Source: Lactobacillus johnsonii ATCC 33200
GTDB lineage: Bacteria > Bacillota > Bacilli > Lactobacillales > Lactobacillaceae
NCBI RefSeq assembly: GCF_000159355.1
Contig: NZ_GG670120.1
Span: 1 to 64,000 of the forward strand
Direction of reading: 5' to 3'
DNA: 64,000 bases
Shown: in pieces, positions 24,553 through 64,000 of the stretch
Layout of the letters: the number at the start of each line of letters is the position of its first letter
How positions within the stretch are numbered: the first letter of the stretch is position 1
The notes under the pieces: model-generated
Database searches by the model: none
Seen by the model: only the letters and a program-made list of their open reading frames with translations
What the model was told of the DNA's origin: nothing
Position numbers and translations under genes: made by a program

Positions 24553-24634
24553 GGAGGCCTAGCGAAGTGGCTAAACGCGGCGGTCTGTAAAACCGCTCTC
24601 TCTGAGTTCGGTGGTTCGAATCCACTGGCCTCCA
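24553..24634 (+). tRNA. tRNA-Tyr (anticodon GTA)
   Basis: An 82-nt class II tRNA: acceptor GGAGGCC/GGCCTCC, anticodon stem GCGGT/ACCGC with loop CTGTAAA (GTA), a long variable arm, T arm with GGTTCGAATCC, discriminator A, no CCA. TATAAT lies at 24534. Confidence 0.96.
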
Positions 24635-60951: not shown

Positions 60952-62328
60952 TTAATTTTTAGGATTCTTTTGCCATTTTAAGCCAATCCCCGTAACCCCG
61001 GAAAGAATTGAGAAAAGTGGGGAAAGTAAACTAAAGAAGGTAAAGGGAATGAAGGCTAAAACTGGAACGCCGAGAGTAGAAGCAGCAAAAGATCCAGCTA
61101 CTCCCCATGGAATTAAGTAGTTAATTACACTTCCTCCATCTTCAAGAACCCGACTTAAGGCAAGTGGGTGAAGACCAATTCGGTCGTAAGCTTGTTTAAA
61201 GGCACGTCCTGGTAGAATTACTGAAAGGTATTGTTCACCAACAAATAAGTTGATACAAATGCCTGAAAGAATAGTAGTGATGACTAAACGGCTTGGTTTT
61301 TTGAGATGTTCAACTAGCGGTTCCATAGCAGTTTGAACAATATTGAATTTCATAAGGAGTCCACCAAGAGATAAGGTAGCAATAATTAAACCAACTGTAT
61401 CCATCATGCTGGAGATACCACCTCTGGTTAAAAGGGCATTAACAGATGAATCACTAGTTTTTGCTACAAAACCATTCATAATTAAGTTAGTTAAGTCAGT
61501 AATAGATTGGTGCGGATTTTGAATAAAAATCATAATGACTGTAACGGTAATGTTTAAAAATAAGGTAGGAATTGCAGGTATCTTGCGCCATGCACAGATT
61601 AACATCAATAAGATTGGTATAATTGCCCACCAAGTAATAGTAAAGTTATGCTCTAAGATAGAAACGGTGTGATTAATTTTTGAAGCATTAATTGAACCAC
61701 TGTTTCCTAGAATCCAAAAAAGGATTAAAGAAACAATAAAGGCAGGAATAGTGGACCACATCATGTTCTTTATATGGGCAAATAATTCACTTTCTGCAAC
61801 TGCAGAAGAAAGATTAGTTGAATCAGATAAAGGAGACATTTTATCCCCAAAAACTACTCCAGAAATGATTGCACCAGCAACAAGAGCTGGATTAGCATTC
61901 ATACTAGCCCCAATTCCAAAGAGTGCGATGCCGACAGTTGAAATTGTTGTAAAGCCACTTCCGATAGCAAGCCCAACAATTGAACAGACAATAAAGACAG
62001 ATGGAACAAAAAATTGACCACTAATTAGGTGGAAGCCTAGTACCATGATTGACGGAATAATACTTCCTTTAATCCATAGTCCAATTAAGGCCCCAATTAG
62101 GATAAAAATAAAAATTGGAATAATAGCTACGCCGATTCCTTCCTTAATTCCATCTTGAATTGAAGACCAGTCATTTCCGCGAATTCTAAGCCAAAATAAT
62201 AATAGACATACTGTAAATAGAACGGGAACTTCTGGCATCAGTCCAAACTTAATAACTGAAATACCTAAAATAAGTAGAAGCAAGAGTAGGATAATAATTG
62301 CTTCTGGAAAAGAAACTTTCTTTTTCAT
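60952..62328 (-). CDS. NhaC-family transporter, predicted tyrosine transporter
   Basis: A 458-residue membrane protein with about 11-12 hydrophobic segments, of the NhaC Na+/H+ antiporter family. Recognisable segments: GSGFTTISTVGIALFGIGAS, VFGDKMSPLSDSTNLSSAVA (with conserved acidic and polar residues) and GEQYLSVILPGRAF. Its leader is a tyrosine-specifying T-box, so transcription rises when tRNA-Tyr is uncharged. That fits reports that NhaC relatives (YheL type, also beside tyrosine decarboxylase genes) carry tyrosine; a Na+/tyrosine role is inferred. Monocistronic. Confidence 0.88.
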   Translation of the reverse strand: MKKKVSFPEAIIILLLLLLILGISVIKFGLMPEVPVLFTVCLLLFWLRIRGNDWSSIQDGIKEGIGVAIIPIFIFILIGALIGLWIKGSIIPSIMVLGFHLISGQFFVPSVFIVCSIVGLAIGSGFTTISTVGIALFGIGASMNANPALVAGAIISGVVFGDKMSPLSDSTNLSSAVAESELFAHIKNMMWSTIPAFIVSLILFWILGNSGSINASKINHTVSILEHNFTITWWAIIPILLMLICAWRKIPAIPTLFLNITVTVIMIFIQNPHQSITDLTNLIMNGFVAKTSDSSVNALLTRGGISSMMDTVGLIIATLSLGGLLMKFNIVQTAMEPLVEHLKKPSRLVITTILSGICINLFVGEQYLSVILPGRAFKQAYDRIGLHPLALSRVLEDGGSVINYLIPWGVAGSFAASTLGVPVLAFIPFTFFSLLSPLFSILSGVTGIGLKWQKNPKN

Positions 62329-62344
62329 AAAAATCCTCCAATAA

Positions 62345-62550
62345 AAAAGTCCTGTTGAAATTAATCAACAGGACGCATTACCGTGGTACCACCTATTTAC
62401 TGCAGATTGCAGCACTCTAATCAGGTGGTAACGGCACTGATTGTGGCCGAATAAAGATGAATCGTTGTAATTCGTAACTTATGCCTGACTGGTTCGCACT
62501 TCACCACCAGCTCTCTGACGCTTAACATAAGCACTACTGTGACGATAATT
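62345..62550 (-). ncRNA. T-box riboswitch specifying tyrosine
   Basis: On the minus strand: Stem I closes with ATCGT/ACGAT and CTTATG/CATAAG around an AGTA-bearing loop; the specifier loop reads GAATTACA, placing codon TAC (Tyr; 62467-62469 on the plus strand) after GAA-N and before A, the usual position. The conserved T-box AGGTGGTACCACGGTAATGCG lies at 62374-62394, and the terminator GTCCTGTTG.../CAACAGGAC plus T6 at 62346-62374. It ends just before the NhaC-type gene. Confidence 0.92.
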
Positions 62551-62687
62551 ATTGCAATTATGATAGCAAGCTTAAAAAAAGATGTCAATGAATTTATTAA
62601 TAAAAATAATAAGATTTCGAATTATGTAGTCTGAGCGGTAAAATAGATAGGTATAGAAAAACTAAAAATTTAAATTGAGGGATTAAG

Positions 62688-63392
62688 ATGAATGATATTT
62701 TAACCACCAAAGAATTAGGAAAAAATTTTAAACGTAAGCATGTTCTAGATCAAATCAATCTTCATGTTCCGACTGGCAAAATCTACTGTATTATGGGACC
62801 AAATGGAGCTGGAAAGTCGACACTATTAAAAATAATTAGTGGAATTGAAAAGCCAACTGAAGGAGTAGTTACTTTCAAAGATAAAAATTGGAAGAGAGAA
62901 GATTTAAAAGTAATTGGTTCCTTAATTGAAGAGCCTGGATTGTTTGATAACTTAACAGTTGAAGAAAACATCAAATTAAAACTAAAACTTCACCGTGTTG
63001 AAAATAAAAATCAGGAACAAATATTAAATACACTGGGCTTTGGTGATCATAATCATGAAAAAGTCAAAGGCTTTTCTACAGGGATGAGACAACGCTTGGG
63101 AATTGCTTTAGCTTTTATGGGAAATCCTGATTTAGTTATTTTGGATGAACCAACAAATGGTCTTGATACTTTTGGTATTCATGGGTTGCGTGAGCTTTTG
63201 ATGCTCGAGAAAAAGCAAGGAAAAACAATAATTATAGCTAGTCACATGCTTTCTGAGATTCAAAAGGTTGCAGATCGAATTGCTATTTTAGGTGATGGAA
63301 AATTGCTCCTAGAAGAAGATTATGAACCAGAAACAGATTTAGAAGAATTATTCATCTCAACTTTAGAAAAGGCAGGCATAAAGCATGACTAA
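62688..63392 (+). CDS. ABC transporter ATP-binding protein (lantibiotic/bacitracin-immunity type)
   Basis: A 234-residue ABC ATPase of the BcrA/lantibiotic-immunity type. Walker A GPNGAGKST (about residues 38-46), Q-loop LIEEPGLFDNLTVEENI, signature FSTGMRQRLGIALAF, Walker B LVILDEPTNGLD, H-loop IIASHMLSEI. It powers an ABC-2 type exporter with the permease that begins at 63385. Sequence style suggests peptide antibiotic immunity or envelope-stress export; no biosynthetic genes lie in view. Ribosome site GAGGGAT. The stop overlaps the permease start. Confidence 0.92.
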   Translation: MNDILTTKELGKNFKRKHVLDQINLHVPTGKIYCIMGPNGAGKSTLLKIISGIEKPTEGVVTFKDKNWKREDLKVIGSLIEEPGLFDNLTVEENIKLKLKLHRVENKNQEQILNTLGFGDHNHEKVKGFSTGMRQRLGIALAFMGNPDLVILDEPTNGLDTFGIHGLRELLMLEKKQGKTIIIASHMLSEIQKVADRIAILGDGKLLLEEDYEPETDLEELFISTLEKAGIKHD

Positions 63393-64000
63393 TATTTTAA
63401 AAGTTGAATTTTTAAAAACAAAACATAGTGTAGTTCGCTTACTAGTATGGCTACTACCAGTGATTGCTGTTTTGATGATGACTGCTGTTTTCTGGGATAA
63501 CCAATATCTAGTTCAATTAATGATGGGCCAATGGAGTTACTTCTGGTTAAATATGTCAATTGGTCTACTGGTTGGTCTTAGTACTTATTATCAAAAGCAA
63601 GCGACGAAATTTAGAGAAATATTAACGTCTCCACAGGACTTATTGAGCTATGAAATTGGTAGAATTCTCCATGGAATTATTCAAGCATGTATCATGAGCG
63701 TGATTTTTATAGTTTTGATGATCTGTGTTCTTTTTATTTTTTCAAGTACCGAAGAAATAGGCTTAATGATTTGTTCAGTAATTGGAGTTTTATTAGCATC
63801 TTTATGGCTGGTGCCATTTTATTCTTGGCTCGTAAGAATTACTAATCTATATTTTGCATTAGGAATTGGTTTTTTAGGATCCATTTTAGCCATGTTTTTA
63901 AGTCGTACGACTTGGAGCATGTGGTGGCCGTTTGATTGGGGGATGCTCTTAAATAATCTGTGGATAAAAGGCGACTTTGTCTTTGGATCATGGAGCTTAG
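63385..64000 (+). CDS. ABC-2 type permease of lantibiotic-immunity type (partial)
   Basis: The first 205 codons of a membrane protein, running off the window end. It starts MTNILKVEFLKTKHSVVRLL, then hydrophobic segments near residues 18-32, 50-65, 100-125 and 130-150, and further ones to the end. It overlaps the ATPase gene by 8 bp and should be its permease partner (MutE/EpiE-like). The 3' part and any second permease lie beyond the window. Confidence 0.85.
   Translation, partial: MTNILKVEFLKTKHSVVRLLVWLLPVIAVLMMTAVFWDNQYLVQLMMGQWSYFWLNMSIGLLVGLSTYYQKQATKFREILTSPQDLLSYEIGRILHGIIQACIMSVIFIVLMICVLFIFSSTEEIGLMICSVIGVLLASLWLVPFYSWLVRITNLYFALGIGFLGSILAMFLSRTTWSMWWPFDWGMLLNNLWIKGDFVFGSWSL

Follow-up and report, generated by a model that had tools for sequence, protein, structure and literature searches.

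A tRNA-Tyr T-box leader upstream of a NhaC-family transporter gene in Lactobacillus johnsonii and a tyrosine-codon leader ORF in its relatives

The window, i.e., the whole stretch of 64,000 nucleotides analysed here (Lactobacillus johnsonii ATCC 33200, contig NZ_GG670120.1, positions 1 to 64,000), harbors a transporter gene which stands alone behind a T-box leader (Table 1). The encoded protein reached 388.8 bits with the NCBIfam profile TIGR00931 (Na+/H+ antiporter NhaC), for which the cut-off is 370, and was also matched by PF03553 above the curated cut-off. This agrees with the preliminary description of this DNA, which had assigned the gene to the NhaC family and placed its ends at 62328 and 60952. 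It is the sole PF03553 match found in this genome of 1.78 Mb. Among the matches listed, the nearest relatives belong to an uncultured Lactobacillus (98% protein identity), L. taiwanensis (94%) and another uncultured Lactobacillus (94%), and a sequence search of the solved structures returned no relative of the transporter (best E 0.08). Divergent ABC transporter genes are located at 62688..63999 and start approximately 360 bases from the start of the transporter gene.

Table 1. Features of the transporter locus and the tRNA-Tyr gene in the window.
Feature	Position	Strand	Basis or remark
NhaC-family transporter gene, 458 aa	60952..62328	minus	TIGR00931 and PF03553 profiles; probable tyrosine importer (TyrT)
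Shine-Dalgarno sequence GGAGG of the transporter gene	62335..62339	minus	letters checked
Intrinsic terminator, 10 pairs and U6	62343..62374	minus	5' arm overlaps the antiterminator
T-box leader (RF00230)	62366..62553	minus	Infernal, 60.5 bits, E 8e-13
T-box core AGGUGGUACCACGG with UGGU bulge	62381..62394	minus	alignment; potential pairing partner of the tRNA-Tyr ACCA end
CGUUA motif overlapping ACCACCU	62423..62433	minus	ACCACCU fully complementary to the T-box core
Specifier loop GAAUUACA	62466..62473	minus	RF00230 alignment; specifier UAC (Tyr) at 62469..62467
AGAGA, Stem I distal motif	62512..62516	minus	RF00230 alignment
AGUA, 5' side of the specifier-loop motif	62535..62538	minus	RF00230 alignment
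Sigma-70 type promoter TTGACA-17-TATCAT, TG before -10	62560..62588	minus	11/12 matches
tRNA-Tyr(GUA), presumed effector	24553..24634	plus	tRNA found in the window

The alignment of the leader to RF00230 spans the whole model (1-219), its E-value being given for a stretch of 451 bases, and a genome-wide search yielded an E-value of 7.5e-13. The score is lower than the Rfam gathering score of 93, which represents a curator's threshold and no structural feature. Because of this, a default Rfam scan of the whole window did not list the T-box, which is found in a permissive scan. Of the 18 T-boxes detected in the genome, 7 pass the gathering score and 11 stay below it, among them the T-box of tyrS. 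A Stem I with AGUA/GAA loop and specifier, a core with a UGGN bulge and an antiterminator/terminator alternative are all present, and the T-box and terminator, which had been noticed upstream of the gene before, are thus both confirmed. The core AGGUGGUACCACGG differs from the RF00230 consensus at two positions. One terminator hairpin followed by T6 (hairpin 62374..62349) was found in the real sequence, compared to a mean of 0.1 in shuffled sequences. Folding energies of -6.2 and -16.9 kcal/mol were obtained for the antiterminator and the terminator piece, respectively, and the segment CCUGUU is used by both. The leader as a whole folds better than its shuffled copies (z -3.1; 1 of 200 shuffles was as good), and in its minimum-energy fold Stem I is not arranged as the model draws it.

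Within the leader, ACCACCU (62423..62429) is complementary to AGGUGGU of the core (62388..62394), and this pairing would perhaps sequester the core in a helix until the tRNA binds. As a conserved holding helix it was rejected, since the complementarity occurs in 64 of 154 leaders, compared to 14.3 expected, and is restricted to a part of the family.

The model aligns GAA-U-UAC-A (62473..62466) to its consensus GAA-a-uuc-a. The codon TAC had been proposed as specifier by eye, and the Infernal alignment with RF00230, which had been named as a check, places UAC and no different codon at this position. The by-eye rule GAA-N-XYZ-A gave the cognate codon in five other T-boxes of the same genome whose gene names the amino acid, i.e., UUC for pheS, AAC for asnA, AUC for a branched-chain amino acid carrier and AUG for both metE and a metQ-type lipoprotein; these controls are 5 of the 17 other T-boxes, and the specifier of tyrS was not readable in full. 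In 146 distinct related leaders, UAC (116) and UAU (41) were the most frequent codons of the specifier window, followed by UAA (23), where all codons in the window were taken, so that one leader can contribute more than one, and four further leaders without an anchor were excluded. The specifier of the window as well as UAC/UAU in the relatives support a predicted control of the transporter leader by tRNA-Tyr.

Upstream of the orthologs (600 nt or whatever the contig holds), the T-box core was present at 64 of 66 loci. The two core-less loci are L072, where the protein match begins only at residue 159, and L082. Matches were present in 144 of 295 genomes of the order, and 150 additional upstream regions were drawn from these. 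Here, the core was found in 81 of 97 regions at an identity of at least 50% and in 9 of 53 below 50%, absence being judged mostly by the core pattern and Rfam being run on only 20 related upstream loci. The 216 regions contain the window itself, close relatives and some species twice and are not independent of each other. Of 20 upstream regions chosen as best matches in other orders of the class, two contain the T-box core together with a UAC-type specifier, and a small number of others display a T-box-like core outside the pattern counted. Near the start of several distantly related NhaC genes from these other orders (L286-L294), a repeat resembling AAAGCG...AAGCGTTtAAG was observed, possibly an operator.

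The relatives display a short leader ORF characterized by the core GGxxxY in 77 of the 216 upstream regions. It follows the T-box terminator and precedes the gene, or it occurs without a T-box (67 of the 154 regions that have a T-box core, 10 of the 62 that lack it). It was found at 21 of the 66 ortholog loci and in 56 of the 150 additional regions; three regions held a second, chance GGxxxY, which was set aside. Using a permissive pattern, an SD-like start precedes GGxxxY in 71 of 216 regions (61 with the T-box core, 10 without). A chance origin was rejected, as shuffled spacers contained GGxxxY in any frame in 29 of 4320 cases and with an SD-like start in 2 of 4320. Examples of the leader peptide are MKNCGGIIRYQLQFK in Limosilactobacillus (L058), MHKCGGLLRYLHNERNLRQRR in Ligilactobacillus murinus (L061), MNCGGMIRYYFFFST at locus L166 and a peptide beginning with MSSQNISYLSCGGIIRYCLTK in Lactococcus formosensis (L068). 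Further loci with a leader ORF upstream of the transporter are L143 and L148 as well as L204 and others, the latter without a T-box. A scan of the 295 genomes with a CGGxxRY-like pattern revealed matches in 38 genomes. The 40 matches listed gave 30 loci, of which 19 are flanked by a T-box core on one side and by a NhaC frame, judged by its first residues, on the other (one of them, L095, is short and looks broken), and 11 have no core nearby.

In 60 distinct 24-mers of the leader ORF the Tyr codon is always UAU, Cys precedes GG in 40 and Arg precedes Tyr in 47, and each of the two Gly codons occurs with all four third bases (entropy 1.87 and 1.94 bits); the search demanded G, G and Y, which are constant by construction, and did not demand UAU, Cys, Arg or free third bases. 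The ORF stops directly after Tyr in 6 of the 60 distinct peptides. In the transporter genes of 37 leader-ORF loci, UAU accounts for only 34 of 131 Tyr codons. Variants with RY and without GG were left uncounted (L132, L186, L053, L055, L057, L060, L083). Among these, Limosilactobacillus coleohominis and relatives (L053, L055, L057, L060, L083) have another short ORF encoding MEQHRYSLH, MKNKRYSMH, MENKRYYCH and similar peptides.

The leader ORF is absent from the window, since no GGxxxY occurs in any of the three frames of 62600..62329, and its own genome has 0 matches to the CGGxxRY-like pattern. Outside of the order, it was found in 0 of the 20 upstream regions chosen as best matches from other orders of the class. 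Text searches of the partial open-access literature returned no report of this ORF, and the leader peptide was not found in the accessible main text portions of Wels et al. (2008; PMC2494555). It is likely new to the literature.

The ten regions with a leader ORF and no T-box core come from two families, and one genome contributes three of them as repeats. Rfam was run on 8 of these regions at E-values up to 0.01 and detected no T-box there, and it detected one in the 12 other loci scanned alongside. A quickly built tree of 115 proteins, in which some long branches and joins are flagged, requires 12 changes for the leader-ORF label and 2 for the T-box core; owing to the flagged joins and the length of the outgroup branch, its polarity of gain and loss is unsure. 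In the clade holding the window, the T-box occurs alone in all 38 rows.

In translational attenuators of the ermC type, a short ORF directly precedes a gene, and a hairpin can conceal the ribosome-binding site of that gene. For the relatives, the unpaired probability of the transporter SD was calculated at 67 distinct loci out of 77, three others having no SD by pattern and the rest being duplicates. Its mean was 0.43 and rose to 0.66 if a ribosome footprint, which is a crude model, was forced open at the Tyr codon, with an increase of more than 0.1 at 45 of 67 loci; a footprint placed 21 nt upstream yielded 0.44. Shuffled spacers gave 0.52, the real value being below the shuffles at 43 of 67 loci (Wilcoxon p 0.0015). 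In this model, a translational attenuator fits many lineages, but not Limosilactobacillus or the leader-only loci. As a general rule for all loci the attenuator hairpin is not supported, since the ribosome-binding site is not clearly concealed in these groups.

The leader ORF may represent a second, translational sensor of tyrosine. Here, a ribosome that halts at the leader UAU, because tyrosine is short or because the nascent peptide stalls it, would expose the ribosome-binding site of the transporter. Some genomes would rely on the leader ORF alone without a T-box, and the Lactobacillus clade of the window would use the T-box alone, through loss of the ORF or by never having had it. Should the leader peptide function in this way, tyrosine would be sensed twice for a single gene, at the level of transcription and again at translation.

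At four Weissella loci (L076-L079) and at two loci from one genus of the window's family (L228 and L231), a different arrangement was observed. An SD is followed by (A/U)UG-GG(G/A)-UA(U/C) in 6 of 6, and the frame of this mini-ORF stops after 3 to 5 codons (MGY, MGYLN, MGYTN). The GGxxxY core lies 29 or 26 nt further on in the -1 frame. In 5 of 6 loci this frame lacks a start preceded by an SD; L079 has one further upstream with a weak SD only. W. halotolerans (L075) harbors a direct in-frame leader ORF. A slip of tRNA-Gly at the hungry Tyr codon would join the mini-ORF and the GGxxxY frame, and ribosomes may enter the latter in no other way; these six loci are candidates for a starvation-induced frameshift. 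If true, Weissella would possess a natural switch based on such frameshifting. In its complete form, the proposal is that tyrosine transporter genes of Lactobacillales carry a T-box and then a (C)GG[ILVM]x(R)Y/UAU leader ORF, i.e., two sensors in series, with the leader alone in some genomes, a possible -1 slip at six loci and the T-box only in the clade of the window. We regard this tentatively, at slightly less than even odds.

The preliminary description had suggested tyrosine (or aromatic amino acid) uptake from the control by tRNA-Tyr, and further observations now point to the same cargo. Prephenate dehydrogenase (PF02153) was not found in this genome and is present in 14 of 14 control genomes; therefore, tyrosine probably has to be imported. 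Among 49 ORFs of the window that were listed mechanically and encode at least 150 aa (median 3.9% Tyr), the transporter has the lowest Tyr fraction, with 3 Tyr in 458 residues. The second-lowest fraction belongs to the neighboring ABC ATPase ORF (62688..63392, 2/234), which slightly weakens the case for a tyrosine importer. In 113 orthologs the median Tyr content is 0.65%, compared to 2.24% (range 1.13–3.37) in 20 more distant family members, which were hand-picked from matches without a detected T-box core; the depletion is shared by descent, which explains much of the sharing, so that these are not 113 independent observations. The lowest value of the comparison proteins is reached by 13 of the 113 orthologs, and four leader-only orthologs are higher (1.55%). 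Phe and Trp are not depleted, leaving Tyr alone among the aromatic residues. A protein poor in the amino acid whose supply it aids would fit a tyrosine importer. Together with the single PF03553 match and the Tyr-codon leader before orthologs, the absence of PF02153 and the Tyr depletion argue for tyrosine as the probable cargo, and both the depletion and the leader of the relatives provide support that does not lean on the T-box. Transport assays or expression data for this transporter were not found in the accessible part of the open-access literature.

Taken together, a transcriptional tRNA-Tyr T-box would control the NhaC-family gene, and its product is most likely a tyrosine importer; we assign this reading a probability of roughly 85%. 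The T-box, specifier, terminator, protein family, Tyr specifiers in relatives and Tyr depletion were obtained by calculation. From these we infer the switch itself as well as cargo, direction and coupling ion. With charged tRNA-Tyr, transcription would halt at the terminator. If uncharged tRNA-Tyr builds up, its GUA anticodon would bind the UAC specifier, the free ACCA end would pair with the UGGU bulge, and the antiterminator would be stabilized and the gene transcribed. The protein would then import tyrosine, driven by an ion gradient, into a host apparently unable to make it.

An alternative with appreciable weight, although unlikely, is that the control is the same and the cargo is broader or different, i.e., aromatic amino acids generally, a tyrosine peptide or an exchange substrate of tyrosine. 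Broad specificity of permeases without a binding protein is expected by Wels et al. (2008; PMC2494555) in the accessible portions of their paper. However, among the aromatic residues of the orthologs only Tyr is depleted, and among the aromatic codons of the leader peptide only Tyr is fixed. If tyrosine is one of several substrates, this alternative is compatible with a tRNA-Tyr-controlled tyrosine importer. Quite improbable is a genuine Na+/H+ antiporter whose Tyr T-box serves pH or sodium homeostasis during tyrosine shortage, a role of the kind proposed for the NhaC genes of tyramine operons and for those controlled by lysine riboswitches. The TIGR00931 score over the cut-off would agree with it, and a possible pH role of NhaC members is raised in the accessible parts of PMC11477304 and PMC12607914. 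Nevertheless, Tyr specifiers occur in relatives throughout the order, a Tyr-codon leader peptide precedes orthologs even where the T-box is missing, Tyr depletion is seen in the regulated orthologs and not in the 20 more distant family members, and the role of nhaC in tyramine operons is itself called uncertain in the portions available.

That the leader is a decayed T-box which no longer responds would be in line with its low RF00230 score. Since the motifs checked are intact and the same leader is kept in close relatives, this is considered very improbable.

The leader ORF of the relatives can be likened to ermC-type attenuators, a likeness that concerns the relatives only and has no counterpart in the window. 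It differs from the ermC type by the GGxxxY core, the unvarying UAU and the combination with a T-box.

As far as the accessible portions of the following papers go, other NhaC-type transporters have been connected to amino acids. In tdcP-tdcA-tyrT clusters, tyrT is a putative tyrosine transporter, and candidate HisR2 sites are located upstream of tdcP (PMC9413887). The role of nhaC or nhaC-2 of tyramine operons is called uncertain (PMC6856193, PMC12607914). Likened by description, tyrT and nhaC-2 resemble the window gene as transporters tied to tyrosine; in contrast to the solitary gene behind a T-box, they sit inside a decarboxylase cluster. MetT genes behind an S-box and NhaC genes behind a lysine riboswitch have been proposed as amino acid transporters (PMC2940859, PMC11477304). 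These are, like the window gene, members of the NhaC superfamily under an amino-acid riboswitch, but riboswitch class and cargo are different.

The closest precedent is the Tyr T-box/NhaC pairing in Table 1 of Wels et al. (2008; PMC2494555), which in the accessible portion lists L. johnsonii NCC 533, L. acidophilus, L. plantarum (2), E. faecalis, B. anthracis and O. iheyensis; Panina et al. (2003) are cited there on aromatic amino acid regulation. Regulator, specifier amino acid, transporter family and the species L. johnsonii are the same, and on this comparison the window is no different, being another genome of the same group. The pairing in the window is thus largely already in print, predicted since 2008, and the feature described here bears out the prediction that such so-called Na+/H+ antiporters would be tyrosine importers.
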